NCBI GenBank assembly: GCA_037042915.1
Contig: CM073193.1
Coordinates: 7,812,001-7,876,000, forward strand
Length of the DNA stretch: 64,000 bases
Source: Auricularia sp. M13
Lineage: Eukaryota; Basidiomycota; Agaricomycetes; Auriculariales; Auriculariaceae
Direction of reading: 5' to 3'
The translations under genes and the position numbers were made by a program. Shown here one piece after another: positions 1-39,215 of this stretch; positions within the stretch are counted from its first letter, which is position 1, and each line of letters opens with the position of its first letter. Under the pieces are notes generated by a model. The model searched no databases. It had not been told where the DNA came from and saw nothing but the letters and a program-made list of their open reading frames with translations.

Positions 1-1039
1 CGTGTGGCGTACGCCTTCAGCTTCAATGCCCCGCGCGGGACAGGACGCGTAGTAGGCGGAAATGGGCGGATGGTGCGACACTTGTTCTGTCTGCGGCATT
101 CCTGTTAGCAGTCAAGCACGCACAATGGAGTCATACACACCAAGTAGACAACGCGGATCGTCTCTGCCGCTGGGACGTCTTCCTCGATCTCCTTGCCAGC
201 CGGCGGGTTGGCAAGATGTTGGAGCGTGTTCAGGCTCAGGTTGGAGGCCGTCGCGCCGGGGTTGCTCTCGACTTGCAGAGCGGCGTTCACCTTGTCCTTT
301 GCTGGGCCTTCCTTGGGCGCTGCGCTGCCGCCGAACGGGCTCCAGCTGCTGAACCTGGACTTGGTTACCGGCGGAGCGTCGGACGTCGGGGCCGTCGTCG
401 ACTCGGACTCCTCGACGAACAGATGGAGGTGCTGGACGGGCTGGTTGGCGTGGTCGCCGTCGGGGTACTCGACCGGCCGGACGTCCCAGTGGCAGCGGAA
501 ATGCTCGCCCAGGACGGAGTTGTAGGGCTTGCAGATCTTGCCGCGTATGAACTTGAGCTCCTTGGAGAAGCACCAGCGCAGCACGGCCAGCATGCGCAGC
601 AGCGGGTCTGGCGAGTCGTTTATTCTGCGAATTTATTATGAGGATCAGAGCCTGGGCGACGTGTCCGGGCTGCGTGCGCACGCTGCAAAGAGGTCTGGGC
701 GATCGAGGTATTGCCAGTACTCGAGATTGGGTATCGGCTCGAGCAGCTGGGCGGGCAGCGACAAGCCTGTGGGCGCGGTCAGCAGTGAGCGCGGACCTGG
801 AGCGCTCTGCACGCACGCCTGCAACGGACGGTGAGCGGTCACATGATGCAGACAGGGGTGCGGCCGACAACGCACATGGCAGCGAGGTCCTTGACGCCCA
901 GACTGCGCTTGAGCAAGTCCACAATCATCTTGAGCTTGCCGGTCTCCGTCGACGCCGCCTCGGCGCCCTGGCCGGCGTCGAACACCTGGGTAGTGGCGTC
1001 GTCGTCGGACGGCGGCGGCGGCAAGGCGACTTTGGACAT
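1..1039 (-). CDS. Oxysterol-binding protein, Osh4/Kes1 type, copy A (5' part; runs off window)
   Basis: OSBP-related proteins carry sterols and phosphoinositides between membranes. ATG at 1039; visible exons 1039-876, 766-682, 624-141 and 90-13. Exon 2 encodes LSLPAQLLEPIPNLEYW, exon 3 encodes KPYNSVLGEHFRCHWDV, and exon 4 carries the family signature EQVSHHPP followed by YYASCPARG. No PH domain precedes it, which fits the short Osh4/Kes1 class. Introns 2 and 3 (625-681 and 91-140) join in frame with GT-AG ends. The exon 1 to exon 2 junction does not: the only good donor and acceptor leave the frame one base off in every copy. Exon 3 is uninterrupted here. The 3' part lies outside the window, so it cannot be judged whether this copy keeps a normal C-terminus. 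Confidence 0.85.
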
Positions 1040-1579
1040 CGTGCTGCGCGTTGGGTATGCAATTATCTATAGGCTGGGGATGCAGGCAGAGTGGCAGAGC
1101 AGGTGGCTCTTCAAAGCGATGATGCCGCTTCCGGCCGTCCGAGATGGATGCCTCCGCACGCACGTTCTCCGCCAACTCTGAACTCTGTCGCGCTGGATGG
1201 CCGTCGCTCCTCCGTCCTCGCCGTCCAATGCCACCCTGGACGCATCGAGGCATTGCGCGACGCCCGCCGATGTGCGTTCATCCAGCGCTCTACACCGCAT
1301 AAAACGCAGCTCAACGGACTGGCGCATTCAGATCATATTGCGCTCGCCGGGCTCGACGCTGACCCACGCTCGCTCGCCGTCGACCTCGCTCTCCAACACA
1401 GTGCCGCAAGCGCTAGCAAGTCTAAATTGACCGCGGTCATGCTCGGCGAGATCCCAGCCACCCAGCGCACAACATGCATTGCGCGCCGTAGACTCTCAAC
1501 CCCGCGGCACCCAAACAAGTCTTGCAGCTGGCGCTGTTATTCCCGCAGCTCGATAACGGCCAGGTTCGTCCTTCATCGA

Positions 1580-2560
1580 CGTCTCAGCATTTCTGACCGA
1601 CATTGTCTCATAGCGTCCGAATTTTGCCTTTTGCTCGACCTCGACGACAGTAAGGTCTACACCACCGCTCCCTGCGTGTCAAGACGGCCTCAGACGACCA
1701 ACGCGAGCTCGGCCAACGTTTCAGCGCAAAGGATTGGCGCTGGCAAAGCAACCCGCAAGACGCATAACACGCCGTAGGAAACGATTTCCGCGACTTTGCG
1801 TACACACGGATGAGGCTTGCAACCGGCGCTATCACATCCTGTGGCTCGATGATGCCGCGTGACGCTGGTACGTCCGCCAGAACCGTATGAGCATCGGTCG
1901 CTCACATTTTGTCGCAGCGTCCCGATTTCTCGTCATTTTCGAGCTCTGCGCCGCGGACGACGCTGGCATAGCCTACGCCAAGCTCGCGCGCGCCTCAGAA
2001 CTGCGCAGGACGACCAACGCGAGCGCAGTCAACATTTCAGCGCAGCGGATCGTCGCAGAGCGAAGATCAATCCAGCGAAACAACGCGCAAGACGCATAGC
2101 GCGCCATACGCGTCGAATTCCACGATTTCAAATGCATTCAAGTGACGCTCGTAGCCGGCGCTATCACCCCCTGTGTCTCGATGACGCCCTTTTGCGCTGG
2201 TACGTCCGCCAGCGGCGTCTGATCACTTCCGCTGACGGCTGCTCGCAGCGTCTCAATTTCTCATTTTTCTCGTGCCAGGACCGCGGACGACGACGGGAGC
2301 GCGTGCGCGCACCCCACGCGCGCGTCAGAACCGGCCTCGAACGACCGGTCTGCTCGCGCGGCCGCTCGGAGTGCGCTCAAACAGCGACGCGCGCGCACGC
2401 AAACTGGCGCCGCGTCGTGCGTGCACGCCTCCGCTCAAGACGACCCTCGCTGCCGCAAGAAAACTGAAAAATCGGCGAAAACGAATTCGGCTCACCGCGC
2501 ACGTCCGCCGCCCGCTCTTCGCAGCGCGCCATCCCCGCCCGACTCGTCTCCGTCCGCCCC
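1580..2560. repeat. Nested tandem array, three diverged ~325-bp repeats (unit 1)
   Basis: Three related stretches beginning near 1580, 1910 and 2240. Shared landmarks are gctggtacgtccgccag (1863 and 2199), cagacgaccaacgcgagc or cgcaggacgaccaacgcg, the caagacgcata block, and a gccgcggacgacg block. No protein could be assigned; open frames here are Arg/Ser-rich and differ between copies. Confidence 0.75.
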
Positions 2561-3279
2561 GAGGACCTGCTTTGTGAGCGGTCAGCAAGTGCCGCATCGG
2601 GATGGAATTATGGGGTGGTACGTACCGTTTTTTGTGCGGTCGAGGCCAAGTTGCTGACGTGCCGACCGCGCGTGCAGGAAGTGTTCGGTCAGCGAGGTGC
2701 GCGCGGGCGGGCGAGTACATTGGGCGCGTGTACATAACATGATTGAACGTATATACAACTGCAATAGAGAACCTGTTCTCACCTGTGACGGACGCGACGA
2801 GCCGAATCGGTCGCGGCGAGCAAATGAATCGGCGGCGACGAGCAAGTCAGACGCGCGAGTGCAGGGCTCAAGTGCGCACACCGTGAGCCTGAGCAGCATG
2901 CAGCCATGATGACCAAGACGAAGCGCCGTCGGGGGGCGATAAGCAGTGGTTGCGGGAGGGAAGTGGGTGTGCGGGAGAAAGGGGCTTGACCACTCGCGAC
3001 GCGTGCGCGCACGCCTTGTATACGCCTGAGAATGGCAGCAGTGCGTCATCGCGGGAAAGATACGGACCTGAATGCGCAAATCCAATCAGGTTGAAGTGTT
3101 GAAGGCGAGGGTGCTTCGCGGGAGGTTCGACAGCATGAGGTGTCAAACTCCAGCTCGGCTCGCGCATTCTGCGCCGTTCCCTCACTCGCCGCCTGCCTCT
3201 CCTCATCAGCTCGTTATATACAGTAGACGCCCATGTTACGCAAGCGCCGGTGAGCAGCAGAGCCAGAGCCTGAGGCAGC

Positions 3280-5160
3280 GCGGTGAGACGGTGCAAACGT
3301 TCTGTCTACGTTCACCGTCCCAACCTCCCGAGCTGCTGCGCCACGCACGCGCTTCCAGGAACACGCTTCTTGTGCTTCTCAGACGGCTGACAGCGGTGAA
3401 CTTGGATCTCCCGCAGGGAGATCGAGGGTTGGTTGGGAATGCGCGCGTTTCGCGACTTGCGCGATTCGACCCGGACGCCACTTCGCGGCTCCTGCGTCGT
3501 TCTGTCTGCTTCAGCCTCGCGCTTGGCAGAGATACGGCATCTGCGCGTGTATACTATGACGGCATGATGATTTGCGGAACGGTTGCACTTGAACGGGGGC
3601 GAGTTCGTCGCATTCGCGAGGTCGTGATCAAGTCTGTTCCGCACGAAGCGTTGTGCCTCTCGGCCACTACTTCCTTTATTGCACCTGCTTTTACATGTAC
3701 GCTGAGTTTTACACTGATAAGCGCTGAGAGAGTGAGTTGGGGAGCGAGGAGCAAGTGAGAGGGGGCGGGGAAGAAGTGCATACCCCCAGCATCTCCGCCG
3801 CCCGCGAGCTCCTACGCCCCAGTGCCCAGCCCAACCACGGATCCGCGCATCCAGGCACTTTGCGTGACGTCTGACGTATGACTTGACAGTGCTAATTCAG
3901 GAAGGAGTGCGCGTGGAATCGAGGGAGGTTGAGTTCTTCGCACATCGCGTGTTGCGCAAGTTCCTCGATCGCGCTGTTCCCTGTCGCTCCAGATTCCATA
4001 TCCTCGTGCACCTGCTCGAGCGTCTACGTCAGTCCAACAATAAGGACTGTATAGCGAATGATGACGGCATGGGGAGTGGCTGAACGCGAGGACTTGGATG
4101 CAACATTCGAACTGGGACTTGCCCGCGCCGCTTGCGCGCGCCCGCTGCGTCTCAACACTGTTTTATGCGTTTCCCACTGGATGTAACGGGAGGTATAGCC
4201 GCGCAAAATTCATTCAAGCGCTCGTGTGCGAGAGGAATGCGTGAATGAGACAGCGAAGGACTAGAGCGGAAATGCGTGTACCCAGCATCTCCGCCGCAGC
4301 GCGACCTCCTGCGCCCCAGAGAGCAGCCCAACCATCGATCCGCGCATCCAGGCACTTCATTCAGTAGGTGACGTCTGACATGACAGACCTAAACCAGGGA
4401 GAGAAGAGTGTGAGGTTGGAGGGCTTGGGGATGCACGTCTTGCGAGCTGCGTCGCGGCTTCTCGATCGCACTCTTCTCTGCTGTCCTACTTCAGATCCTG
4501 CGCCTTCTGTGCTGAGCAAGGACAAGAGTGTTGGATCTGCAACATGACGGCATGGTTGAGTGTTGAGAGACAAATCAGGGAGCTGCATGCTCCCGCCCAG
4601 TGCATGAGCTTGAATTGTGTGTCGCGACCGAAACCAACTCGCGGCAGTTTTCACAGTGCCCGCGTATATCCAGCACAGCTCTTTAATCACCAATTACGGC
4701 ATTTAACTCTGAGCCAATTGGCACTCGTTGTCTGAGGGAGCTGCGCGGTGGAATTAGAGGAGACGGGGAGGGTGCGGATACCCCCATCCCCGCTGAATCA
4801 ACCTCTTCCCGCCACCCACTGCAGCACAGCCAAATAATCGCGCATCCAGGCACGGCTTATGACGTCTGGCGTATGGCATGACAGCTCGAATGGATGAGTG
4901 CGCCCGCACAAGATCGGGGTGGTTGGGATTGCGCGGTTTTCGCGTCTTGCCTGATCGCCACCCCTCGCCCCGGAGCGCTTCTCCGGGCTCTCTGTTCAAC
5001 GCAAATCGACGTAATCAACTAGGGCCATGTATGGGAGATGACGCACATATCTTGCGAGAGGCTGCTGTGCAATTAAACGACTGTATTTCTCCCGCTTGCA
5101 CGTTTGGCGTAACTTCTGAAATCCGAAGATCGTGCCGTCTCAATGACCGAGAAGTATGAG
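3280..5160. repeat. Nested tandem array, four diverged ~500-bp repeats with TGACGT motifs (unit 1)
   Basis: Four related stretches can be aligned on a shared block (ggttgggattgcgcg-like text followed by cgcgtcttgc or its variants) at about 3421, 3912, 4409 and 4915, giving periods of 491, 497 and 506. Each of the last three boundaries contains gcgcatccaggcac followed by tgacgtctgacgtatg or a close variant, then gacag (about 3846-3890, 4337-4387 and 4841-4883). TGACGT is the half-site of CREB/ATF-type bZIP factors; a regulatory role is only inference. No protein-coding content was recognised. Confidence 0.78.
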
Positions 5161-5802
5161 CGATGGCAAGCGCCGGTTGAGACCCTTACCCGCTTCAGTC
5201 ATCTAGATAATGATTTCCCCGCGCAAAGACGAATTTGAAGCTTTTAAGCTGCAATGCAAACCGCGTGCTTCCCTGTCAATTGTTTTCGCCACGTGCGCTG
5301 TGGGGAACTGATGTTCAGGCCCACTAAAACCCCACAGCTGAAGCAACTTCTCTCGCGTGGCGATTACGTAATCACGGGACGCATTCAATTAAGACCGACT
5401 TTGGCTCAGCCATCTGACTGTCGCAATCATTCACGCATGGAATTGGGTATTAGCAACTGCTTCTGTGCTCCCCAACGTTAGCAGAACTGGTGGATGCTTG
5501 ACAGCAGTTGAATATCGACGCCGGGGTCCCTGTCGTTGTCGCGAGCGCCGACACTGACAGTCTGTCAGTTTCGGAGGGTCTAGCATCGCGGCCTGTCAGC
5601 GGAGAAGCGCCACTCCACGGGCTGCGAATCGAGTGCGCTGTCACCGGCGGAGGCTGCGAGCGGAAACCTGACGTTTCGATCGCTCGCGCGAAGCGTCGAC
5701 GCAGCGGAGCAGCGGAGTGTCCGACGATCCAACCATCGGGCTTCGCGTTACACGAGTTTTTTCAAACTCCTCAACCTGTCTTTGTGCCCCGCCCGCCAGT
5801 CC

Positions 5803-5808
5803 TATAAA
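5803..5808 (+). promoter_or_regulatory. TATA box of array orphan gene (unit 1)
   Basis: TATAAA in cctataaattggg, about 45-50 nt before the first ATG at 5854. The same box is kept at 15284, 24781 and 34344 in units 2-4. Confidence 0.6.
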
Positions 5809-5853
5809 TTGGGCACGAGCCCCGGCATTCTGGCCATCTATCCCCCCTTCTTC

Positions 5854-7863
5854 ATGCTCGCATGCTGCCACTCCGTCGCCTGCAACCACTCGTCTGCATC
5901 GCGCTGCCCGACGACAATGCCCTCGGATGCTGTGAGTCGATTTTCCTTTCATCTCACTGCCGTCTGTCTTGCATTCTACCATTGGACCGTCATTTTCCGC
6001 ATCTTCTGCTACCCAATCACGTTTCTTCTAATCCTCGCATACGACGCTGCGTGTGTCGCGGTGCGCTGTCACGTGGTCGCCGTTCACATCTCCAGGCTGC
6101 TTCCTTTGCGCATTACCCCATCGTTGAACTCCGGTGTTCTGACTCTCTCCTCGCAGATATTCTCGTTGCTACTTGGCCAATGCCAGGCCACACGACCTCC
6201 TTGCGCGTCAAATCCATTCAGTTTATGGTGAGCTGCCGGCGTTCGTCACTGCCCTTGATACTTCCGCGAGGCTGACCTCCATGCCGCAGATCACTCAACC
6301 AGTTTTTTGCGCGGTCTGAACGCATCTGACATTTGTACGTCGTGCACTTCTCCCTCGCGCAACACATTACTGACATACCTTTTCCACCAGCGGACTCCTC
6401 GGAGACCCAGTGGGCCACTCCGGCAGATTCCGCACCTTGACCCGCAACCATCACCTCGCCCGCTCGCAAGACGGCGGCGACGTCTCATTTGCTCAGCAAG
6501 GTAATATAATTTTTGCGCGCCTGTTCTCGCATTGCTGACTGCTTGGCTGCAGCTGCTCTTCCGCACCGCCACGTACTGCCTGGCGCAGCTTCGACGATCT
6601 TTGCGGCGCGCGCAAACGTAAGTCGTCGCTTTATCCCCCCGGTAATGTCCAACGCCTGTTCTTCCAGGATAGGTCAACACTCTACGCTGCAGACAATGGC
6701 GACTACGAAAGCAACGGACGCGACGGAGACGACGGTCGCGGAATCGGCGCCGCGGCGCTGTCAGGAACATCGTACTCGTGAGTTGCGGCTTTTACCCCCT
6801 CTGGTAATGTCCAACGCCTGTTCATTCAGGAAATTTGCTATTGCTCGGTGACGGCAGCGGCGTCGGACGGCGCTCGGTGCTGGATGGACCATCTCGGTTC
6901 GTGTATTTTCCATGCGCATTGCCGACGTCCGGACTTACTTTCTTTCGTTAGAGGCGCATGTCCGTCAGCCCTGAAGCTCAATGGCGCCTGGTTCGCGACA
7001 CGCGCACGGTATGTCATCCTCAAACTATCCACCGAGATTGAGAGTGCTGATCGACGCTCTCTAGTTGCATCCACCGCGGCCGCTGTCTTCCTCATTGCCG
7101 CCCGAGTGCCGACGCACCGCCTGTGAGAGACGATGTTCCACGTGCCAGCTGTCCACCGTCGTCGCCGTCCGGCCATGTCATCGGGCGGCGAACGATGAAG
7201 GATCCCGCGGACTGCGCCGCCGTTGGCTCAACACGTGAGTTCCCGCGCCCTCCGTCCATGAATGCATTTCTCACATGCAGTAGTTGCGCAGGTAGTCGTC
7301 CTTGACGCCGATGGCTTGGTCCGCGGCGATGTTCGTGATCATTGAGTGTTTTTGTGGCGTTCGGCAACTGCTAACCTGTTTTTTCAGCATCCCGCGAACC
7401 TTCAGGGCTCCAAACGCGCTCCTCGGTGCAAGAAAGACGCCGAGACCTCTCGGCGGTCTTGATTCGCGAGTCCCCCGCCGACGTTGTTCATCGCGCGAAC
7501 AAAATCCGCCGGGGACGGCTCAGTCGGCCCCACCAGCATCGTCGCTTGACTACGGCGCAATATACATCAGCCCGAGCTGGCTCAGTGTGTATCGCGTCGC
7601 GCGCGCCGCCCTCCGCTGGCGCAATCGACTCCGACCTCGCGTGGTGTCGCGTTCGGCGCTCCGAGCAACCCGCGACTCGCCACCCCACCTACGAGGTCCT
7701 TCAAGTCGCATGTGCCACACCCTCGCGCGCTGGCCGTCCATCTCCGACGTTGTGGAGATGGACCCCGTTCAGTCCGCCCGAGACCATCACCACCGGCAGC
7801 CAACCTGATCTCACTGCGGCGCCGCACCGTCTTCGGTGGCCGGGAATTACGGCACATATCTAG
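5854..7863 (+). CDS. Intron-rich orphan gene in array unit 1 (function unknown)
   Basis: Not recognised. A TATA box is followed by a chain of short exons with GT-AG borders whose phases agree: 6391-6500 (GLLGDPVGHSGRFRTLTRN...), 6553-6617 (LPHRHVLPGAASTIFAARAN), 6668-6777 (Gly/Asp-rich, GDYESNGRDGDDGRGIGAA), 6830-6896, then further small exons and a long last exon from about 7388 (ERRRDLSAVLIRESPADVVH...) to a stop at 7863. The product would be Arg-rich and without membrane segments. Exons 5' of 6391 could not be joined in frame. Compared with units 2 and 3, unit 1 lacks one base near 6841, which shifts the frame, so this copy may be inactive. Frame agreement over several exons argues for a real or recently real gene, but it could also be captured, decaying sequence. 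Confidence 0.45.
6618..6667 (+). other. Intron with a near-twin at 6778-6829 (introner-like pair)
   Basis: This intron (50 nt) and the next (52 nt), separated by a 110-nt exon, share ggtaatgtccaacgcctgtt exactly, have similar starts (gtaagtcgtcgc and gtgagttgcggc) and similar acceptors (cttccag and cattcag). The flanking exons are not similar. The pair recurs in units 2 and 3 (for example 16094-16143 and 16254-16305); in unit 4 the second twin has lost its acceptor region. Confidence 0.65.
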
Positions 7864-8192
7864 CCTGCATCAACCCTCGTCGCCTCTCACCGCGGTTCTG
7901 CTGCGGCGAGCGAGTTTCGCCTGCATTGTGGATTAAGCGCCGGTCCCGGCCACCGTTGACCCCATTTCGAAAAACTGTGAGCATTTCCTGCTTTGGATGT
8001 CTAGCAACATGCTAACCTCTATGGAGGTAGTCGTCCTTGACGTCGCGCTCGACGGCGAGGAATATTTTTGGTCATTTCCGGGCCATTTTTTCGACCTGTG
8101 AGCCATCGCGTTCCCCAACATCCTCTTCACCGGTCTGACCGTTTCGCAGTGCCGCTCGACGCCGCGTTCGACGACGACCGAATATTTTCGAG

Positions 8193-10524
8193 TCATTTTT
8201 CGTAAGTTTTTGTTATCCGTGCCCAGGGTGTTCTGCGACTCAACGAGGCTCCATCCAGCCACTTTGCGCCGCCGTAGCTATTTTTTCCGCGATTCTGTGT
8301 GATTTCTCGTCTCGCGCGTCTCAGCTGTCGCCCGCACTTTGCTGTACTTGTCCGCCGCATGTCACTAGATAGAATTGAAATATGACAGGCCCGGGCGGTG
8401 GACATACCCATATGTCCACCGCCCGGGTCCTGTACCGCGCCCAGAGGGGGAATCCCTGTCAGTTTGATTTTCTGTTCACCTCGGGACTTGCGTCGAATTT
8501 TTGTCGATAGCTCATGCGAGTTTCGACGGGCTTTACTGCCGACTATCGCCTGCTCGGACGCCACGGACAATGTCAACGGACGCCACGGAAAATGTCTATT
8601 GCCACGGATCCTATGTACACGGAGCACCTTCTCCCACAGCCGTCTGCTCTCGAACGGGCCCTGCTCCTCCAGCGGCCGAACGGTCTTCGGGAACATCGTG
8701 ACGGCGCTCAGGTCGACGAGCTCACGCCACTCGCCCACCGGCGCGCCGTTCTCGAACTTGCGCCAGCGGAACGACTTGCGCCAGCAGCCCTCGAACTGCG
8801 CCACGATACGCTCCTTCGGCACGTGCTTCACCTGTTCCCGAAAATCAGTCGGAGTGCTGGGTGGTGACAGTAGTAAGTAGGAACGGACCTTGGTCCAGTC
8901 GCTGTGCTCCTTGACGCCCTTCTCGACGCCGGCCTTGCGCACCTTGGACGACTTGCTCTGGCCGGACTTGACGCTCGCCGAGTCGTCCGAGACGGACGTG
9001 TAGGGCGTGCCGGTGAACTCGTCGTCCTCGTACGTGTGTATGACGCCCTCGACCAAGAACTGCGGCTTCCCGAGCCACGACTGTTGCCGTCGTGCGTCAG
9101 CCCGGCGTCCACAGCATCAGCACCAGGCGCACCTCGTCCTTGTACTCGATCACCGTGCGGTACTTGAGTCCAGGCTGTCCCCAGAGCACGTAATAATCGT
9201 CTAGCACGCGTCAGTGACGCTGCAGCCATCGGCGGCGCAAAGACCTTACCGATTCCGACACGGTTGCGTAGAAGCTGCCGCGCAGGATGCCGTTGACCTG
9301 CGCGGTGGGGTGCGTGACGCGGTAGGACTCGCCGGCGCCGTGGCCGCTGGTGATGCGCACGAAGATGCCCTTGTTGGCGGCGCCGGGCGCAATGCGCACC
9401 GTCGTCCCAGAGACGCGGGCGGCAATCTGGTCAATCTGCAATGGGCCGGTGCCAGTTAGCAACGCACAATAATAGCGCAGCGCTGGCGTGTGGCGTACGC
9501 CTTCAGCTTCAATGCCCCGCGCGGGACAGGACGCGTAGTAGGCGGAAATGGGCGGATGGTGCGACACTTGTTCTGTCTGCGGCATTCCTGTTAGCAGTCA
9601 AGCACGCACAATGGAGTCATACACACCAAGTAGACAACGCGGATCGTCTCTGCCGCTGGGACGTCTTCCTCGATCTCCTTGCCAGCCGGCGGGTTGGCAA
9701 GATGTTGGAGCGTGTTCAGGCTCAGGTTGGAGGCCGTCGCGCCGGGGTTGCTCTCGACTTGCAGAGCGGCGTTCACCTTGTCCTTTGCTGGGCCTTCCTT
9801 GGGCGCTGCGCTGCCGCCGAACGGCTCCAGCTGCTGAACCTGGACTTGGTTACCGGCGGAGCGTCGGACGTCGGGGCCGTCGTCGACTCGGACTCCTCGA
9901 CGAACAGATGGAGGTGCTGGACGGGCTGGTTGGCGTGGTCGCCGTCGGGGTACTCGACCGGCCGGACGTCCCAGTGGCAGCGGAAATGCTCGCCCAGGAC
10001 GGAGTTGTAGGGCTTGCAGATCTTGCCGCGTATGAACTTGAGCTCCTTGGAGAAGCACCAGCGCAGCACGGCCAGCATGCGCAGCAGCGGGTCTGGCGAG
10101 TCGTTTATTCTGCGAATTTATTATGAGGATCAGAGCCTGGGCGACGTGTCCGGGCTGCGTGCGCACGCTGCAAAGAGGTCTGGGCGATCGAGGTATTGCC
10201 AGTACTCGAGATTGGGTATCGGCTCGAGCAGCTGGGCGGGCAGCGACAAGCCTGTGGGCGCGGTCAGCAGTGAGCGCGGACCTGGAGCGCTCTGCACGCA
10301 CGCCTGCAACGGACGGTGAGCGGTCACATGATGCAGACAGGGGTGCGGCCGACAACGCACATGGCAGCGAGGTCCTTGACGCCCAGACTGCGCTTGAGCA
10401 AGTCCACAATCATCTTGAGCTTGCCGGTCTCCGTCGACGCCGCCTCGGCGCCCTGGCCGGCGTCGAACACCTGGGTAGTGGCGTCGTCGTCGGACGGCGG
10501 CGGCGGCAAGGCGACTTTGGACAT
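8193..10524 (-). pseudogene. OSBP copy B, C-terminally truncated and frameshifted
   Basis: Same gene as copy A, here visible from ATG (10524) to the end. After EQVSHHPP the remaining exons encode DQIAARVSGTTVRIAPG, HPTAQVNGILRGSFYA, SWLGKPQFLVEGVIHTYE and EFRELV-like ORP core sequence ending in PLEEQGPFESRRLWEKV at 8625. Known Osh4-like proteins continue for several tens of residues with a basic helical tail. Here homology stops at 8625 and the frame runs 144 codons into unrelated sequence, through the palindrome, to a stop at 8193. Two single-base losses relative to other copies break the frame: one in exon 3 near 9822 (gaacgg against gaacggg) and one near 9177-9182 (tgtcccc against tgtccccc). 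Probably not functional, unless both are base-calling errors. Confidence 0.8.
8390..8427. repeat. Perfect 16-bp inverted repeat at OSBP truncation side (unit 1)
   Basis: Arms cccgggcggtggacat (8390-8405) and atgtccaccgcccggg (8412-8427) with loop acccat. The stem extends by acagg/cctgt with one bulged t (8385-8433). Read on the minus strand, the hairpin is followed 16 nt later by CTAG then T, resembling a Helitron 3' terminus; this is suggestive only. Confidence 0.85.
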
Positions 10525-11060
10525 CGTGCTGCGCGTTGGGTATGCAATTATCTATAGGCTGGGGATGCAGGCAGAGTGGCAGAGCAGGTGGCTCTTCAAA
10601 GCGATGATGCCGCTTCCGGCCGTCCGAGATGGATGCCTCCGCACGCACGTTCTCCGCCAACTCTGAACTCTGTCGCGCTGGATGGCCGTCGCTCCTCCGT
10701 CCTCGCCGTCCAATGCCACCCTGCGCACGCACCAGGCATTGCGCGACGCCCGCAGTGTGCGTTCATCCAGCGCTCTCGCATAAAACGCAGCTCAACGGAC
10801 TGGCGCATTCAGATCATATTGCGCTCGCCGGGCTCGACGCTGACCCACGCTCGCTCGCCGTCGACCTCGCTCTCCAACACAGTGCCGCAAGCGCTAGCAA
10901 GTCTAAATTGACCGCGGTCATGCTCGGCGAGATCCCAGCCACCCAGCGCACAACATGCATTGCGCGCCGTAGACTCTCAACCCCGCGGCACCCAAACAAG
11001 TCTTGCAGCTGGCGCTGTTATTCCCGCAGCTCGATAACGGCCAGGTTCGTCCTTCATCGA

Positions 11061-12041
11061 CGTCTCAGCATTTCTGACCGACATTGTCTCATAGCGTCCG
11101 AATTTTGCCTTTTGCTCGACCTCGACGACAGTAAGGTCTACACCACCGCTCCCTGCGTGTCAAGACGGCCTCAGACGACCAACGCGAGCTCGGCCAACGT
11201 TTCAGCGCAAAGGATCCGCGCTGGCAAAGCAACCCGCAAGACGCATAACACGCCGTAGGAAACGAATTCCGCGACTTCGTGTGCGCTCGGACGACGCTGG
11301 CAACCGGCGCTATCACATCCTGTGGCTCGATGATGCCGCGTGACGCTGGTACGTCCGCCAGAACCGTATGAGCATCGGTCGCTCACATTTTGTCGCAGCG
11401 TCCCGATTTCTCGTCATTTTTGAGCTCTGCGCCGCGGACGACGATGGCATAGCATCCGTCAAGCTCACGCGCGCGCCAGAATTGCGCAGGATGACCAACA
11501 CGAGCACAGGCAACATTTCAGCGCAGCGGATCGTCGCAGAGCGAAGATCAATCCAGCGAAACAACGCGCAAGACGCATAGCGCGCCATACGCGTCGAATT
11601 CCACGATTTCAAACACATTCAAGTGACGCTCGTAGCCGGCGCTATCACCCCCTGTGTCTCGATGACACCCTTTTGCGCTGGTACGTCCGCCAGCGGCGTC
11701 TGATCACTTCCGCTGACGGTTTCTCGCAGCGTCTCAATTTCTCATTTTCTCGTGCCAGGACCGCGGACGACGACGGGAGCGCGTGCGCGCACCCCACGCG
11801 CGCGTCAGAACCGGCCTCGAACGACCGGTCTGCTCGCGCGGCCGCTCGGAGTGCGCTCAAACAGCGACGCGCGCGCACGCAAACTGGCGCCGCGTCGTGC
11901 GTGCACGCCTCCGCTCAAGACGACCCTCGCTGCCGCAAGAAAACTTGAAAAATCGGCGAAAACGAATTCGGCTCACCGCGCACGTCCGCCGCCCGCTCTT
12001 CGCCGCGCGCCATCCCCGCCCGACTCGTTTCCATCCGCCCC
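11061..12041. repeat. Nested ~325-bp repeats (unit 2)
   Basis: Same three-part array as at 1580-2560, at an offset of about 9481. Unit-2 variants include the stretch around 11217-11300 that differs from units 1 and 3. Confidence 0.75.
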
Positions 12042-12751
12042 GAGGACCTGCTTTGTGAGCGGTCAGCAAGTGCCGCATCGGGATGGAATTATGGGGCGGT
12101 ACGTACCGTTTTTCGTGCGGTCGAGGCCAACTTGCTGACGTGCCGACCGCGCGTGCAGGAAGTGTTCGGTCAGCGAGGTGCGCGCGCGGGGGCGAGTACA
12201 TTGGGCGCGTGTACATAACATGATGAACGTATATACAACTGCAATAGAGAACTTGAATACACCTGTGATGGACGCTAGCGGCGACGAGCAAATGAATCGG
12301 CTGCGACGAGCAAGTCAGACGCGCGAGTGCAGGGCTCAAGTGCGCACACCGTGAGCCTGAGCAGCATGCAGCCATGATGACCAAGACGAAGCGCCGTCGG
12401 GGGGGCGATAAGCAGCGGTGGCCGGAGGGAAGTGGGTGTGCGGGAGAAAGGGGCTTGACCACTCGCGACGCGTGCGGGCAAGCCTTGTATACGCCTGAGA
12501 ATGGCAGCAGTGCGTCATCGCGGGAAAGATACGGACCTGAATGCGCAAATCCAACCAGGTTGAAGTGTTGAAGGCGAGGGTGCTTCGCGGGAGGTTCGAC
12601 AGCATGAGGTGTCAAACTCCAGCTCGGCTCGCGCATTCTGCGCCGTTCCCTCACTCGCCGCCCTGCCTCTCCTCATCAGCTCGTTATATACAGTAGACGC
12701 CCATGTTACGCAAGCGCCGGTGAGCAGCAGAGCCAGAGCCTGAGGCAGCGC

Positions 12752-29518: not shown

Positions 29519-30126
29519 CGTGCTGCGCGTTGGGTATGCAATTATCTATAGGCTGGGGATGCAGGCAGACTGAGAGTGGCAGAGCAGGTGGCTCTTCAAA
29601 GCGATGATGCCGCTTCCGGCCGTCCGAGATGGATGGCTCCGCACGCACGTTCTCCGCCAACTCTGAACTCTGACTGCATGCCTCAAATCGCAGACGCACC
29701 ACACGCGCCCGCCGCCTGGCTCGACGCATCCAGCGCTCGCTCGCCGAATCTTGTCCTCATCATCACAGCGCGCTTGCCCGCGTCCAAATGACCACGGTCA
29801 TGCTCGGCGACCATCCAGCGCACCAGGCATTGCGCCCCGCTCGCCGTGCTCGACGCTGACCCACGCTCGCTCGCCGTCGACCTCGCACTCCAACACAGTG
29901 CCGCAAGCGCTGGCATAGCTAGCAAGTCCAAATGTCAACATGGCCAGTATGTTCAGCTCGACCGTGAACTCGTTCGACACCAGCGCGCCTGCAGTCGTCC
30001 CAGCCACCCAGAGCTCAGACGACCAACTCTGCATCCCAACGTTTCTGCCCGCTCAGCAAACAAGACGCCTGCAGCAGGCGCTGTTATTCCCGCGGCTCGA
30101 TGACGGCCAGGTTCGTCCTTCATCGA

Positions 30127-31108
30127 CGTCTCAGCATTTCTGACCGACATTGTCTCATAGCGTCCGAATTTTGCCTTTTGCTCGACCTCGACGACAGTAA
30201 GGTCTACACCACCGCTCCCTGCGTGTCAAGACGGCCTCAGACGACCAACGCGAGCTCGGCCAACGTTTCAGCGCAAAGGATCCGCGCTGGCAAAGCAACC
30301 CGCAAGACGCATAGCTCGCCGTACGAATCGAATTCCGCGACTTCGTGTGCGTTCGGACGACGCTGGCAACCGGCGCTATCGCATCCTGTGGCTCGATGAT
30401 GCTGCGTGACGCTGGTACGTCCGCCAGAACCGTATGAGCATCGGTCGCTGACATTCGCTCGCAGCGTCCCGATTTCTCGTCATTTTCGAACTCTGCGCCG
30501 CGGACGACGATGGCATAGCCTACTTCAAGCTCAGGCGCGCGCCAGAACTGCGCAGGACGACCACCGCGAGCGCAGTCAACGTTTCAGCGCAGCGGATCGT
30601 CGCAGAGCGAAGATCAACCCAGCAAAGCAACGCATAAGACGCATAGCGCGCCATACGCGTCGAATTCCACGATTTCAAACGGATTCAAGTGACGCTCGTA
30701 GCCGGCGCTATCACCCCCTGTGTCTCGATGACGCCCTTTTGCGCTGGTACGTCCGCCAGCGGCGTCTGATCACTTCCGCTGACGGTTTCTCGCGGCGTCT
30801 CAATTTCTCATTTATCTCGTGCCAGGACCGCGGACGACGACGGGAGCGTGTGCGCGCACCCCACGCGCGCGTCAGAACCGGCCTCGAACGACCGGTCTGC
30901 TCGCGCGGCCGCCCGGAGTGCGCTCAAACAGCGACGCGCGCGCACGCAACGTGGCGCCGCGTCGTGCGTGCACGCCTCCGCTCATGACGACTCCCGCTGC
31001 CGCAAGCAAACTGAAAAATTGGCGAAAACGAAATCGGCTCACCGCGCACGTCCGCCGCCCGCTCTTCGCAGCGCGCCATCCCCGCCCGACTCGTCTCCGT
31101 CCGCCCCG
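30127..31108. repeat. Nested ~325-bp repeats (unit 4)
   Basis: Same three-part array; the first repeat resembles unit 2. An additional partial match (cagacgaccaac, aagacgc) lies just upstream near 30015-30070, in the unit-4-specific segment. Confidence 0.72.
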
Positions 31109-31811
31109 AGGACCTGCTTTGTGAGCGGTCAGCAAGTGCCGCATCGGGATGGAATTATGGGGTGGTACGTACCGTTTTTTGTGCGGTCGAGGCCAAGTTG
31201 CTGACGTGCCGACCGCGCGTGCAGGAAGTGTTCGGTCAGCGAGGTGCGCGCGGGCGGGCGAGTACATTGGGCGCGTGTACATAACATGATCGAACGTATA
31301 TACAACTGCAGTAGAGAACTTGAACACACCTGTGATGGACGCTGGCGGCGGCGAGCAAATGAATCGGCTGCGACGAGCAAGTCAGACGCGCGAGTGCAGG
31401 GCTCAAGTGCGCACACCGTGAGCCTGAGCAGCATGCAGCCATGATGACCAAGACGAGGCGCTGGTTGTGGGGCGATAAGCAGCGGTGGCGGGAAGGAAGT
31501 GGGTGTGCGGGAGAAAGGGGCTTGACAACTCGCGACGCGTGCGGGCAAGCCTTGTATACGCCTGAGAATGGCAGCAGTGCGTCATCGCGGGAAAGATACG
31601 GACCTGAATGCGCAAATCCAACCAGGTTGAAGTGTTGAAGGCGAGGGTGCTTCGCGGGAGGTTCGACAGCATGAGGTGTCAAACTCCAGCTCGGCTCGCG
31701 CATTCTGCGCCGTTCCCTCACTCGCCGCCCTGCCTCTCCTGATCAGCTCATTATATACAGTAGACGCCCATGTTACGCAAGCGCCGGTGAGCAGCAGGCC
31801 TAGGCAGCGCG

Positions 31812-33690
31812 GTGAGACGGTGCAACAACGTTCTGTCTACCCTCACCGTCCCAACCTCCCGAGCTGCTGCGCCACGCACGCGCTTCCAGGCACGCGCTTC
31901 TTGTGCTTCTCAGACATCTGACAGCGGTGAACTTGGATCTCCCGCAGGGAGATCGAGGGTTGGTTGGGAATGCGCGCGTTTCGCGACTTGCGCGATTCGA
32001 CCCGGACGCCACTTCGCGGCTCCTGCGTCGTTCTGTCTGCTTCAGCCTCGCGCTTGGCAGAGATACGGCATCTGCGCGTGTATACTATGACGGCATGATG
32101 ATTTGCGGAACGGTTGCACTTGAACGGGGGCGAGTTCGTCGCATTCGCGAGGTCGTGATCAAGTCTGTTCCGCACGAAGCGTTGTGCCTCTCGGCCACTA
32201 CTTCCTTTATTGCACCTGCTTTTACATGTACGCTGAGTTTTACACTGATAAGCGCTCGAGAGAGTGAGTTGGGGGAGCGAGGAGCAAGTGAGAGGGGGCG
32301 GGGAAGAAGTGCATACCCCCAGCATCTCCGCCGCCCCGCGAGCTCCTACGCCCCAGTGCCCAACCCAACCACGGATCCGCGCATCCAGGCACATCAGGTG
32401 ACGTCTGACGTATGACTTGACAGTGCTAATCCAGGAAGGAGTACGCGCGGAATCGAGGGAGGTTGAGTTCTGCGCACATCGCGTGTTGCGCAAGTTCCTC
32501 GATCGCGCTGTTCCCTGTCGTTTCAGATTACATCTCCTCGTGCACCTGCTCGAGCGTCTACGTCATTCTAAGAATAAGGACTCTATAGCGAAGGATGTCG
32601 GCATGGGGAGTGGCTGAACGCGAGGACTTGGATGCAACATTCGAACTGGGGCTTGCGCGCGCCGCTGCTGCGTCTCAACAATTTTTTTATGCATTTCCCA
32701 CTACATATGACGGGAGGTATAGCCGCGCTTAATTCATTCAAGCGCTCTTGTGCGAGAGGAATGCGTGAATGAGACGGCGAAGAGCTAGAGCGGAAATGCG
32801 TGCACCCAGCATCTCCGCCGCAGCGCGACCTCCTGCGCCCCAGAGAGCAGCGCAACCATCGATCCGCGCATCCAGGCACTTCATTCAGTAGGTGACGTCT
32901 GACATGACAGACCTAAACCAGGGAGAGAAGAGTGTGAGGTTGGAGGGCTTGGGGATGCACGTCTTGCGAGCTGCGTCGCGGCTTCTCGATCGCACTCTTC
33001 TCTGCTGTCCTACTTCAGATCCTGCGCCTTCTGTGCTGAGCAAGGACAAGAGTGTTTGATCTGCGACATGACGGCATGGTTGAGTGCTGAGAGAGACATC
33101 AGGGAGCTGCATGCTCCCGCCCAGTGCATGAGCTTGGATTGTGTGTCGCGACCGAAACCAACTCGCGGCAGTTTGCACAGTGCCCGCGTATATCCAGCAC
33201 AGCTCTTTGATCAACAATTACGGAATTGCACTTTGAGCCAATTGGCGCTCGTTTTCTGAGGGGGAGCTGCGCGGTAGAATTAGAGGAGACGGAGAGAGTG
33301 CGGATACCCCATCCCCGCTGAATCAACCTCTTCCGACTTCCGCGCCACCCACTGCAGCACAGCCAAATAATCGCGCATCCAGGCACGGCCTATGACGTCT
33401 GGCGTATGGCATGACAGCTCGAATGGATGAGTGCGCCCGCACAAGATCGGGGTGGTTGGGATTGCGCGGGTTTCGCGTCTTGCCTGATCGCCACCCCTCG
33501 CCCCGGAGCGCTTCTCCGGGCTCTCTGTTCAACGCAAATCGACGGAATCAACTAGGGCCATGTATGGGGGGATGACGCACATATCTTGCGAGAGGCTGCT
33601 ACGCAACGACTGCATTTCTCCCGCTTGCACGTTAGGCGTAGCTTCTGAAATCCGAAGATCGCGCCGTCTCAATGACCGAGAAGTATGAGC
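31812..33690. repeat. Nested ~500-bp repeats (unit 4)
   Basis: Same four-part array, with more substitutions than units 1-3, including changes around 32575-32720 and 33050-33310. Confidence 0.75.
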
Positions 33691-34343
33691 GATGGTAGCG
33701 CCGGTTGAGACCCTTACCCGCTTCAGTCATCTAGATAATGATTTCCCCGCGCAGAGACGAATTTGAAAGCTTTTAAGCTGCAATGCAAACTGCGTGCTTC
33801 CCTGTCAATTGTTTTCGCCACGTGCGCTGTCCGGGGAACTGATGTTCAGGCCCACTAAAACCCCACAGCTGAAGCAACTTCTCTCGCGTGGCAATTACGT
33901 AATCACGGGACGCATTGAATTCAGACCGACTTTGGCTCAGCCATCTGACTGTCGCAATCATTCACGCATGGAATTGGGTATTAGCGACTGCTTCTGTGCT
34001 CCCCCAACGTTGGCGGTACGTACACCTGGTGGATGCTTGACAGCAGTTGATAATGGACGCCGGGGTCCCTGTCGTTGTCACGCGCGCCGACACTGACAGT
34101 CTGTCAGTTTCGGAGGGTCTAGCATCGCGGCCTGTCAGCGGAGAAGCGCCACTCGCACGGGCTGCGAATCGAGTGCGCTGTCACCGGCGGAGGCTGCGAG
34201 CGGAAACCTGACGTTTCGATCGCTCGCGCGAAGCGTCGACGCAGCGGAGCAGCGGAGTGTCCGACGATCCAACCATCGGGCTTCGCGTTACACACGTTTT
34301 TTCAAACTCCTCAACCTGTCTCTGTGCTCCCGTCCGCCAGTCC

Positions 34344-34349
34344 TATAAA
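34344..34349 (+). promoter_or_regulatory. TATA box of array orphan gene (unit 4)
   Basis: TATAAA upstream of the ATG at 34396; conserved with the other units. Confidence 0.6.
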
Positions 34350-34395
34350 TTGGGTACGAGCCTCGGCATTCTGGCCATCTATTCCCCCCTTCTTC

Positions 34396-36356
34396 ATGCT
34401 CGCATGCTGCCACTCCGTCGCCTGCAACCACTCGTCTGCATCGCGCTGCCCGACGACAATGCCCTCGGATGCTGTGAGTCGATTTTCCTCTTCATCTCAC
34501 TGCCGTCTGTCTTGCATTCTACCATTGGACCGTCATCTTCCGCATCTTCTGCCACCCAATCACGTTTCTTCTAGTCCTCGCATACGACGCTGCGTCGGCT
34601 TGTCGACGGTGCGCTGTCACGTGGTCGCCGTTCACATCTCCAGGCTGCTTCCTTTGCGCATTACCCCATCGTTGAACTCCGGTGTTCTGACTCTGTCCTC
34701 GCAGATATTCTCGTTGCTAATTGACCAATGCCAGGCCTCACGACCTCCTTGCGCGTCAAATCCATTCAGTTCATGGTGAGCTGCCGGCGTTCGTCACTGC
34801 CCTTGATACTTCCGCGAGGCTGACCTCCATGCCGCAGATCACTCAACCAGTTTTTTGCGCGGTCTGAACGCATCTGACATTTGTACGTCGTGCACTTCTC
34901 CCTCGCGCAACACATTACTGACATACCTTTTCCACCAGCGGACTCCTCGGAGACCCAGTGGGCCACTCCGGCAGATTCCGCACCTTGACCCGCAACCATC
35001 ACCTCGCCCGCTCGCAAGACGGCGGCGACGTCTCATTTGCTCAGCAAGGTAATACACTTGTCGCGCGCCTGTTCTCGCGTTGCTGACTGCTTGGCTGCAG
35101 TTGCTCTTGCACACAGCCACGTACTGCGTGGCGCAGCTTCGACGATCTTTGCGGCGCGCGCAAACGTAAGTCGTCGCTTTATCCCCTCGGTAATGTCCAA
35201 CGCCTGCTCTTCCAGGATAGGTCAACACTCTGCGCTGCAGACAATGGCGACAACGAATGCAACGGACGCGACGGAGACGACGGTCGCGGAATCGGTGCCG
35301 CGGCGCTGTCAGGAACATCGTACTCGTGAGTTGCGGCTTTTACCCCCTCTGGTAATGTCCAACGCTTGTTCATAATTTGAGATTTGCTCGGTGACGGCAG
35401 CGGCGTCGGATGGCACTCGGTGCTAGACTCGGTTCGTGTATTTTCCATCGCATTGCCGATGTCTGGACTTACTTTCTTTCGTTAGAGGCGCATGTCCGTC
35501 AATCCTGGGAGCTCAATGGCGCCTGATATCGCGACGCACGCACGGTATGGCGTCCTCAAACTATCCACCGAGATTGAGAGTGCTGATCGACGCTCTCTAG
35601 TTGCATCCACCGCGGCCGCTGTCTTCCTCATTGCCGCCCGAGTGCCGACGCACGGCAGGCGAGAGACGACGGCGACGGGGGTTCCACGTGCCAGCTGTCC
35701 ACCGTCGTCGCCGTCCGGCCATGTCATCGGGCGGCGAACGATGAAGGATCCCGCGGACTGCGCCGCCGTTGGCTCAACACGTGAGTTCCCGCGCCCTCCG
35801 TCCATGAATGCATTTCTCACATGCAGTAGTTGCGCAGGTAGTCGTCCTTGACGCCGATGGCTTGGTCCGCGGTAATGTTCGTGATCATTGAGTGTTTTTG
35901 TGGCGTTCGGCACCTGCTAACCTGTTTTTTCAGCATCCCGCGAACCTTCAGGGCTCCAAACGCGCTCCTCGGTGCAAGAAAGACGCCGAGACCTCTCGGC
36001 GGTCTTGAATTCGCGAGTCCCCCGGCGATGTTGTTCATCGCGCGAACCAAATCCGCCGGGGACGGCTCAGTTCGGCCTCACCAGCATCGTCGCTTGACTA
36101 CGGCGCACGATACATCAGCCCGAGCTGGCACAGTGTGTATCGCGTCGCGCGCGCGCGCTCCGCTGGCGTAATCGACTGCGACCTCGCGTGGTGTCGCGTT
36201 CGGCGCTCCGTGCAACCCGCGACTCGCCGCCCCACCTACAAGGTCCTTCAAGTCGCATATGCCACACCCTCGCGCGCCGGCCGTCCATCTCTCGTCGTTG
36301 TGGAGATGGACCCCGTTCAGTCCGCCCGAGACCGTCACCACCGGCAGCCAACCTGA
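34396..36356 (+). pseudogene. Intron-rich orphan gene in array unit 4, more decayed
   Basis: Same gene, with the most differences. The exon after the second twin intron is damaged: the ttcattcag acceptor and part of the following exon are replaced around 35370-35390, and about 10 nt of the later exon are missing near 35425. The terminal exon has a changed GC run near 36148. Probably not expressed as the same protein as units 2 and 3. Confidence 0.42.
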
Positions 36357-36739
36357 TCTCACTGCGGCGCCGCACCGTCTTCGGTGGCCGGGAATTACGG
36401 CACATATCTAGCCTGCATCAACCCTCGTCGCCTCTCACCGCGGTTCTGCTGCGGCGAGCGAGTTTCGCCTGCATTGTGGATTAAGCGCCGGTCCCGGCCA
36501 CCGTGACCACATTTCGAAAAACTGTGAGCATTTCCTGCTTTGGATGTCTAGCAACATGCTAACTCTCTATGGAGGTAGTCGTCCTTGACGTCGCGCTCGA
36601 CGGCGACGAATATTTTTGGTCATTTCCGGGCCATTTTTCGACCTGTGAGCCATCGCGTTCCCCAACATCCTCTTCACCGGTCTGACCGTTTCGCAGTGCC
36701 GCTCGACGCCGCGTTCGACGACGACGGAATATTTTCGAG

Positions 36740-39073
36740 TCATTTTTCGTAAGTTTTTGTTTTCATTGCCCAGGGTGTTCTGCGACTCAACGAGACTCCA
36801 TCCAGCCACGTTGCGCCGCCGTAGCTATTTTTTCCGCGATTCTGTGTGATTTCTCGTCTCGCGCGTCTCAGCTGTCGCCCGCACTTTGCTGTACTCGTCC
36901 GCCGCATGTCACTAGATAGAATTGAAATATGACAGGCCCGGGCGGTGGACATACCCATATGTCCACCGCCCGGGTCCTGTACCGCGCCCAGAGGGGGAAT
37001 CCCTGTCAGTTTGATTTTCTGGCAACCTGCGGACTTGCGTTGGTCCCAAAAACGACACTCATGCGAGTTTCGACGGGCTTTACTGCCGACTATCGCCTGC
37101 TCGGACGCCACGGACAATGTCAACGGACGCCACGGAGAATGTCTATTGCCACGGATCCTATGTACACGGAGCACCTTCTCCCACAGCCGTCTGCTCTCGA
37201 ACGGGCCCTGCTCCTCCAGCGGCCGAACGGTCTTCGGGAACATCGTGACGGCGCTCAGGTCGACGAGCTCACGCCACTCGCCCACCGGCGCGCCGTTCTC
37301 GAACTTGCGCCAGCGGAACGACTTGCGCCAGCAGCCCTCGAACTGCGCCACGATGCGCTCCTTCGGCACGTGCTTCACCTATTCCCGAAAATGAGTCGCA
37401 GTGCTGGGTGGTGACAGTAGTAAGTAGGAACGAACCTTGGTCCAGTCGCTGTGCTCCTTGACGCCCTTTTCGACGCCCGCCTTGCGCACCTTGGACGACT
37501 TGCTCTGGCCGGACTTGACGCTCGCCGAGTCGTCCGAGACGGACGTGTAGGGCGTGCCGGTGAACTCGTCGTCCTCGTACGTGTGTATGACGCCCTCGAC
37601 CAAGAACTGCGGCTTCCCGAGCCACGACTGTTGCCGTCGTGCGTCAGCCCGGCGTCCATAGCCCCAGCACCAGGCGCACCTCGTCCTTGTACTCGATCAC
37701 CGTGCGGTACTTGAGTCCAGGCTGTCCCCCAGAGCACGTAATAATCGTCTAGCACGCGTCAGTGACGCTGCAGCCATCGGCGGCGCAAAGACCTTACCGA
37801 TTCCGACACGGTGGCGTAGAAGCTGCCGCGCAGGATGCCGTTCACCTGCGCGGTGGGGTGCGTGACGCGGTAGGACTCGCCGGCGCCGTGGCCGCTGGTG
37901 ATGCGCACGAAGATGCCCTTGTTGGCGGCGCCGGGCGCAATGCGCACCGTCGTCCCAGAGACGCGGGCGGCAATCTGGTCAATCTGCAATGGGCCGGTGC
38001 CAGTTAGCAACGCACAATAATAGCGCAGCACTGGCGTGTGGCGTACGCCTTCAGCTTCAATGCCCCGCGCGGGACAGGACGCGTAGTAGGCGGAAATGGG
38101 CGGATGGTGCGACACTTGTTCTGTCTGCGGCATTCCTGTTAGCAGTTCAGCACGCACAATGGAGTGGTACACACCAAGTAGACAACGCGGATCGTCTCTG
38201 CCGCTGGGACGTCTTCCTCGATCTCCTTGCCAGCCGGCGGGTTGGCAAGATGTTGGAGCGTGTTCAGGCTCAGGTTGGAGGCCGTCGCGCCGGGGTTGCT
38301 CTCGACTTGCAGAGCGGCGTTCACCTTGTCCTTTGCTGGGCCCTCCTTGGGGGCTGCGCTGGCGCCGAACGGACTCCAGCTGCTGAACCTGGACTTGGTT
38401 ACCGGCGGAGCGTCGGACGTCGGGGCCGTCGTCGACTCGGACTCTTCGACGAACAGATGGAGGTGCTGGACGGGCTGGTTGGCGTGGTCGCCGTCGGGGT
38501 ACTCGACCGGCCGGACGTCCCAGTGGCAGCGGAAATGCTCGCCCAGGACGGAGTTGTAGGGCTTGCAGATCTTGCCGCGTATGAACTTGAGCTCCTTGGA
38601 GAAGCACCAGCGCAGCACGGCCAGCATGCGCAGCAGCGGGTCTGGCGAGTCGTTTATTCTGCGAATTTAGTATGAGGATCAGAGCCTGGGCGACGTGTCC
38701 GGGCTGCGTGCGCACGCTGCAAAGAGGTCTGGGCGATCGAGGTATTGCCAGTACTCGAGATTGGGTATCGGCTCGAGCAGCTGGGCGGGCAGCGACAAGC
38801 CTGTGGGCGCGGTCAGCAGTGAGCGCGGACCTGGAGCGCGATGCACGCACGCCTGCAACGGACGGTGAGCGGTCACATGATGCAGACAGGAGTGCGGCCG
38901 ACAACGCACATGGCAGCGAGGTCCTTGACGCCCAGACTGCGCTTGAGCAAGTCCACAATCATCTTGAGCTTGCCGGTCTCCGTCGACGCCGCCTCGGCGC
39001 CCTGGCCGGCGTCGAACACCTGGGTAGTGGCGTCGTCGTCGGACGGCGGCGGCGGCAAGGCGACTTTGGACAT
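36740..39073 (-). CDS. OSBP copy E, C-terminally truncated; right edge of array
   Basis: ATG at 39073 within partial unit 5; the 3' half lies in unit 4. Exons (by offset from copy A) are 39073-38910, about 38800-38716, 38658-38175 and 38124-38047, then later exons down to 37172. Exon 3 and the later C-run are intact, so this and copy C are the best-preserved complete copies. The core ends with SRRLWEKV at 37172, followed by unrelated in-frame sequence to 36740. Its upstream flank (39216-39588) is single-copy DNA, so it is the only copy that could retain the original promoter. A 399-codon open frame at 37759-38958 overlaps it in another frame and simply reads through two introns. Confidence 0.78.
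36937..36974. repeat. Perfect 16-bp inverted repeat (unit 4)
   Basis: Identical hairpin to that at 8390-8427; sequence just beyond it (37020-37060) differs from units 1-3, while the hairpin itself is unchanged. Confidence 0.85.
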
Positions 39074-39215
39074 CGTGCTGCGCGACGGGTATGCAATTAT
39101 TTATCTAAGGGGGTCAGGCTGGGGATGCAGGCAGACTGAGAGTGGCAGAGCAGGTGGCTCTTGAAAGCGATGATGCCGCTTCCGGCCGTCCGAGATGGAT
39201 GCCTCCGCACGCACG
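38035..39215. repeat. Partial tandem unit 5, right end of array
   Basis: Last, incomplete unit, containing only the 5' half of an OSBP gene and about 140 nt upstream of it. Similarity to units 1-4 is high up to cgcacgcacgt near 39214. It then fades through a short gapped match ending at tctgaact (39237-39244) and stops. Beyond this the sequence is single copy. This is the only OSBP copy whose upstream flank is not another array unit. Confidence 0.92.

Follow-up and report, generated by a model that had tools for sequence, protein, structure and literature searches.

We analysed a window of 64,000 nucleotides (C1:7812001-7876000) from the 52.1-Mb, 14-contig assembly of the basidiomycete Auricularia sp. 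M13, and found that it holds part of a tandem array, here called locus A, in which a gene segment (G) alternates with a noncoding segment (L). The same plan, G-(L-G)n, was found at 4 of 4 complete loci of the assembly with four different genes: an oxysterol-binding protein gene (OSBP/ORP) at A (n=5), Exo84 at B (n=5), an actin-family gene that we read as Arp1-like (Pfam says Actin) at C5 (n=2), and a myosin-motor gene at E (n=1). L has no consistent coding constraint, and its promoter, intron sites and hairpin are conserved. We give about an even chance to the reading of L as a dispersed noncoding RNA gene that entered between copies of a host gene's 5' part and was then amplified.

The tandem array proposed in the original prediction is real. 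Recurrence of 20-mers and BLASTN comparison of the window with itself showed that units of about 9.5 kb are arrayed head to tail over positions 1-39216. Exact 20-mers over 1-39.2 kb were mostly spaced 9,468-9,575 bases apart, and from 40 kb on no 20-mer in the window had a partner 9-10.5 kb away. The self-comparison gave alignments of 9.4-30 kb with identities of 94.2-97.7%. The array passes the left window edge, as had been proposed, and extends in the assembly from C1:7801648 to C1:7851216, both edges joining unique flanking DNA. It contains five L (7.46-7.52 kb) and six G (2.03-2.05 kb), the edges of G5 and L5 being approximate, and L5 is its most diverged L (94.0-94.7% identity to L1-L4). 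The two nested repeat arrays described for each unit correspond to two pairs of diverged sub-repeats, of about 310-325 bp (69-71%) and 120-135 bp (78-80%), and a 22-bp tandem of 1.9 copies, for which "arrays" is a generous word.

The claim that the array is not ribosomal DNA (rDNA) also held. No Rfam family reached its gathering score in the window, and an rDNA array is ruled out by the lack of any 18S/5.8S/28S or 5S rRNA match at that score. At gathering score Rfam likewise gave no matches in 17 of 50 loci taken from the assembly, and ARAGORN found no transfer RNA in the window. With permissive settings, Rfam returned three matches in one unit (E 1.4, 3 and 6.7), all well short of the gathering score; we took them as chance, and a known Rfam family was rejected. 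The ratio of observed to expected CpG was 1.24 in L versus 1.11 in the right flank, which leaves methylation or repeat-induced decay of L unsupported. No 5.8S rRNA turned up in a search of the whole assembly, which may therefore lack the true rDNA.

At locus A, G consists of the OSBP/ORP gene's 5' part on the - strand, in agreement with the predicted truncated OSBP gene. Its reading frame contains the EQVSHHPP motif of the OSBP family; the Pfam scores were weak (24.6 and 19.2 bits against a cut-off of 28.9, and up to 29.4 in another search). The leftmost copy, G1, which lies outside the window, is the only one of the six that continues into an apparent native C-terminus. G2-G6 end after ...RRLWEKV, at the start of L's 3' edge; in the five copies measured, the other edge of G is 126-143 bases before the ATG. 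The rightmost copy, G6, alone retains its native flank on the upstream side, toward a short-chain dehydrogenase gene. G3 has two single-base deletions and G5 one, all reckoned to fall in coding exons; these may be sequencing errors, as near-identical units often differ from one another by single-base indels.

DNA searches of the assembly found relatives of L at four other loci, B, C5, C8 and E (Table 1). At each complete locus one edge copy of G extends into the whole gene and the remaining copies are cut. The lengths are similar: 7.39-8.05 kb for L, and for G about 1.98-2.21 kb at A, C5 and B (minus the leftmost copy of B, which carries an insertion and measures 2.51 kb) and about 2.0-2.1 kb at E. 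In B, where G is an Exo84-like gene beginning 8 bases upstream of the ATG, the leftmost copy spans pieces of Exo84_C 1-195 of 205 and the other five end at 149; a second Exo84 gene lies elsewhere, at C1:5.04 Mb. In C5 the gene is on the + strand and is cut after LNTFKKAR, and at the native right flank its last exon continues (MCVTAEEYQEDPDIIHKKIGL, then stop). In E the myosin-motor gene is on the downstream side of L, and on the upstream side is a second copy of its 5' part (96.2% over 1,113 bases plus 74% over 367 more), which begins about 1.4 kb before the ATG and is cut within the first third of the motor domain. This second copy sits beyond a long terminal repeat (LTR) retrotransposon of about 10.8 kb that interrupts L and has identical 630-base direct repeats and gag, zinc knuckle and aspartyl protease domains. 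G is cut near the C-terminus in A, B and C5, but not in E, and the gene and L point in opposite directions in A and B and in the same direction in C5 and E. Other genes flanking the L loci include a dehydrogenase, a caleosin and a retrotransposon.

Within arrays the units are highly similar (99.8-100% for B units 2-5, 94.8-94.9% for B unit 1, 94.0-99.6% in A and 99.4% in C5), whereas between arrays the identity is about 68-82% in the alignable parts, a contrast that is concerted evolution. Between the L of A and that of C5 or E the identity is mostly about 50-60%, or no BLASTN alignment is obtained, with blocks of about 75-97% at the same positions.

Neither strand of L could be sustained as protein-coding, because neither phase nor frame tests gave a consistent constraint. 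Codon-phase bias between A and B was found in 0 of 40 windows at p<0.01, and frame tests on five blocks of L in five locus pairs gave 0 of 150 at p<0.01. Among three codon-phase controls, bias appeared only in Exo84 B-C8 (1 of 4 windows), the other two having 1 and 0 usable windows. What is conserved in L is of another kind, and with no conserved open reading frame, but a conserved predicted promoter, splice sites and structure, it has the sequence features expected of a long noncoding RNA gene, with exceptions in the splice sites and at C8.

The anatomy of L was described with L4 as the reference unit. Its upstream part (20.2-24.5 kb) contains diverged sub-repeats, at least one of which has an intron-like module. 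The promoter 20-mer AGCGGAGKGTCCGACGATCC was exact in 13 of 13 promoter-bearing copies (five in A, five in B, two in C5 and one in E) and nowhere else; allowing up to 3 mismatches, a search of the assembly gave 9 further matches, all at 3, and the reversed-pattern control gave 13. The TATAAA of the promoter block is the only TATAA(A/G) per unit in array A. On the + strand, 5 of the 6 intron candidates of A fell in alignment columns of B's 13, and on the - strand 1 of 3 fell in columns of B's four. A further GTAAGT...CAG near 25.6 kb was seen by eye in A, B and C5 and is less clean in E and C8. A 22-bp hairpin near the 3' end of L is present at all five loci (folding z of -3.1 to -4.5); 97.7% of its cells pair, versus 27-43% with the partner slid, and two pairs are altered on both sides, both in the sequence of E. 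With up to 2 mismatches the hairpin arm matched the five loci and three single places in the assembly, the reversed control also giving three, and the hairpin pattern had 0 matches in viral contigs. The homology of A, B and C5 stops at TATGTACACG, which resembles a yeast-type end-formation signal (TATGTA), and the C8 counterpart is ATGTACACG.

Two dispersed sequences of about 1.13 kb (L049 and L050), 99.5% identical to each other, have about 68% identity to the sub-repeat and intron module at 20804-21226, and appear to be a small recently copied element or gene.

The G genes of all four loci have an excess of synonymous change and are under strong constraint. Synonymous to nonsynonymous differences in OSBP were 10:3 (G1-G2), 10:1 (G6-G2), 11:1 (G1-G6) and 1:0 (G5-G4) over about 1,450 coding bases, with 10, 19, 20 and 3 differences in 576 other positions for the same pairs. 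Exo84 gave 38:10, 6:1, 38:9 and 0:0 over exon spans; the Arp1-like gene gave 15:2, 17:1 and 13:1, with 61-123 changes per about 1,100 noncoding bases; and the myosin-motor gene gave 8:2, with 16 of 432 bases differing just upstream. The neutral nonsynonymous share of 0.74 used here is an approximation, and these are simpler counts at lower divergence than the tests on L. Copy number had been suggested to affect the dosage of the OSBP fragment or the orphan. For full-length OSBP it is not raised, because only the leftmost of six copies retains the C-terminus; the dosage of the cut protein could matter, because the differences between G copies are mostly synonymous.

We propose that L, of about 7.4-8.0 kb, would comprise an upstream part, a TATA promoter and, on the + strand, a predicted transcript of about 2.8 kb that has small introns and a 3' hairpin. 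Judged from sequence, L may be transcribed and spliced, its product may work as RNA, L may move as a unit, and its copy number may matter. Upon entry L would be flanked on both sides by a copy of about 2 kb of the host gene's 5' part, one gene copy being whole and the other cut. Locus E would represent the n=1 state, from which unequal exchange would expand G-L-G to G-(L-G)n; exchange and gene conversion would then homogenise each array while separate loci diverge. For the entry itself we have guesses. A circle bearing L and a piece of G could have integrated by homology, or there could have been a duplication with templated insertion, replication template switching or something else. The finding of a second myosin-motor copy at E made it likelier that L enters by duplication. 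If this proposal is right, a noncoding RNA gene has spread by splitting off the fronts of host genes with one copy left intact, and has hit four unrelated genes with a similar duplication length each time. We know of no element that acts in this way. It would offer a within-genome comparative handle on RNA function and a checkable gene-duplication puzzle.

Several observations weigh against this proposal. The TATA promoter, the splice motifs and the TATGTA end signal are predicted features, and the conservation of L was judged among paralogues of one genome, where ectopic conversion could mimic its blocky pattern. The coding tests were not entirely silent: codon-phase bias between B and C8 reached p<0.01 in 1 of 18 windows, and 16 of the 150 frame tests reached p<0.05 (about 7.5 expected), the lowest being 0.016 and none recurring in all pairs. 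Some splice motifs are missing in C5, which reads GCTACC at 25205, GTCCAC at 25312 and, for the candidate at 21594-21653, CAC at its 3' site; in E the 3' site at 25312 is AAA and the 26959 site is missing from the alignment. At C8 neither the promoter nor the G-L-G form is present. The covariation of the hairpin is thin, its observed score being reached by 15 of 500 shuffles and the double changes coming from E alone. Within the assembly we found no empty site, no recent copy and no transposase for L. Conversion from the whole gene could also contribute to the low nonsynonymous counts in G.

The strongest rival, considerably less probable than the proposal above, is that ordinary segmental duplication spread L as a resident family of RNA genes, the flanking gene copies being side effects of the breakpoints and entry needing no mechanism of its own. 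The L loci are old, and no transposase, terminal repeat or short target duplication was seen, as this explanation would have it. It is opposed by all 4 complete loci, in which near-constant ends of L lie between 5' copies of differing genes and G has a similar length.

A bolder version of the noncoding RNA gene reading, which we put a little below segmental duplication, is that L, as a selfish RNA gene, enters loci in a way of its own, duplicating about 2 kb of a host gene's 5' part with one copy left whole and then amplifying, and that the cut copies stay under selection, maybe as an RNA-plus-decoy-protein system aimed at polar growth. The idea arises because all four partners (ORP, Exo84, Arp1-like and myosin-motor) belong to families that we take to serve secretion and the cytoskeleton, a theme drawn from four loci.

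It is unlikely that L is a macrosatellite, a neutral large repeat whose conserved blocks come from ectopic conversion only. Homogenisation inside arrays is strong, as expected of such a repeat, but the single-copy L of E matches A and B at about 75-87% in the blocks of the promoter, splice sites and hairpin, with much of the remainder giving no BLASTN alignment, and the synonymous excess in the G copies also speaks against it.

Still more doubtful is the idea that the antisense of the 3' block of L provides a common C-terminal tail to the cut proteins, yielding fusion proteins. The cut OSBP of A (27175-28098 on the - strand and equivalents) and the cut Exo84 of B do enter the same antisense frame, and the tail is common to 6 of the 7 translated copies, with stops after 163 codons in G2, G3, G5 and G6 of A and after 166 and 146 in G2 and G6 of B; G4 of A shifts frame and stops at 120. 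A 143-codon frame that extends OSBP into the 3' end of L on the - strand had 82% identity to B (142 amino acids) and 62% to C5 (141 amino acids), with one stop each. However, the same frame would be entered by chance in one third of cases, and the genes of C5 and E have the other orientation, in which the tail is unusable. The ratio of nonsynonymous to synonymous rates in this frame was 0.81 (A-B), 1.21 (A-C5), 1.00 (B-C5) and 0.61 (B-C8, p 0.07), and no selection as protein was detected.

The original prediction described a protein-gene array with an orphan gene in each unit, and neither description was supported. Coding is confined to the 2-kb G, and about 7.46 of the 9.5 kb is the noncoding element that is also found at four other loci. 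A fast-evolving orphan protein encoded by the unit is very improbable: one unit does have 22 open frames of at least 100 amino acids, but they fall 11 per strand, no frame is consistently constrained, the best B matches of 11 of the 22 contain a stop, and Pfam found nothing besides OSBP in one unit. Least probable of all is an assembly artefact. Some near-identical units differ mainly by indels (between B L4 and L5, 3 substitutions and 19 indels, 17 of them single-base, an excess that suggests uncorrected long-read errors), so the unit number may be misjudged, but units differ by up to 6%, unique DNA is joined at both sides and four loci have one plan.

Among known systems, tandem arrays of rDNA and other RNA genes share with locus A a large, homogenised head-to-tail unit and, as proposed here, a noncoding product, and CpG is not depleted in L; unlike them, the arrays described here have no rRNA, few units, several dispersed loci, a predicted TATA-type promoter and introns, and a protein-gene part in each unit that differs by locus. 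The Stellate/Suppressor of Stellate and hairpin RNA loci of Drosophila also join pieces of housekeeping genes with noncoding or hairpin transcription in tandem units; here, however, the RNA part is unrelated to the gene part, the gene orientation varies by locus and there is no evidence of silencing. Retrotransposon derivatives of the LARD (large retrotransposon derivative) type have a large conserved noncoding interior and, when arrayed, N+1 flanking repeats per N interiors. We rejected them because the direct repeats that bound L are the OSBP, Exo84, Arp1-like or myosin-motor host genes, differing by locus, and are not LTRs of its own. As for DNA transposons and Helitrons, six-frame Pfam searches of one unit gave no transposase or helicase, the ends of L are near-constant and a short duplication was unseen; a nonautonomous copy is compatible with these features. 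In wine yeast, region B is amplified through circles, and its insertions are reported to be recent, the breakpoints having little or no similarity (PMC3053389). There too one segment occupies several loci of a single fungal genome, whereas the L insertions are old and noncoding, with about 2 kb of a duplicated gene on either side. In the open-licence literature, for the terms used, we recognised nothing as matching L or the G-(L-G)n plan.

Table 1. Features of locus A (window positions) and other loci with L in the assembly
Feature	Position	Strand	Remarks
G2, 5' part of OSBP/ORP gene	1..1165 (begins left of window at -862)	-	ATG 1039
L2, noncoding element	1166..8624	+	TATA 5803, hairpin arm 8388
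G3, OSBP/ORP copy	8625..10650	-	ATG 10524; C-terminus cut at 8625
L3, noncoding element	10651..18108	+	TATA 15284, hairpin 17870-17918
G4, OSBP/ORP copy	18109..20137	-	ATG 20010; Pfam Oxysterol_BP pieces on - strand
L4, noncoding element (reference unit)	20138..27606	+	TATA 24781, hairpin arm 27370
Intron candidate, upstream part of L4	21175..21223	+	common to locus B
Intron candidate	21594..21653	+	common to locus B
Predicted promoter block of L4, 260 bases	24540..24800	+	20-mer AGCGGAGKGTCCGACGATCC 24689-24708; TATAAA 24781
Intron candidate	25205..25266	+	GT and AG in A, B, C8, E; AG only in C5
Intron candidate	25312..25363	+	common to B and C8
Intron candidate	26959..27013	+	GTGAG(C/T)...TAG in A, B, C5, C8
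Most conserved block of L4, with 22-bp hairpin	27327..27460	+	central 100 bases 91-97% among A, B, C5, C8
3' edge of L4	27590..27606	+	contains TATGTACACG; interlocus homology stops here
G5, OSBP/ORP copy	27607..29653	-	ATG 29518; right edge approximate, from assumed length
L5, noncoding element, most diverged	29654..37171	+	TATA 34344, hairpin arm 36935; left edge approximate
G6, last OSBP/ORP copy	37172..39216	-	ATG 39073; C-terminus cut; unique right flank from 39217
Locus B	C1:660-710 kb		5 units of about 10.0 kb
Locus C5	C5:2.92-2.95 Mb		2 units
Locus C8	C8:2.49 Mb		one partial L, begins just past TATA position, ends in Exo84 sequence
Locus E	C1:1.246 Mb on		one L copy, about 7.7 kb

The right flank of the array within the window carries three further genes, all on the - strand: the short-chain dehydrogenase (39589-40515), a cytochrome P450 (55735-57360) and an alpha/beta hydrolase (62114-63739).

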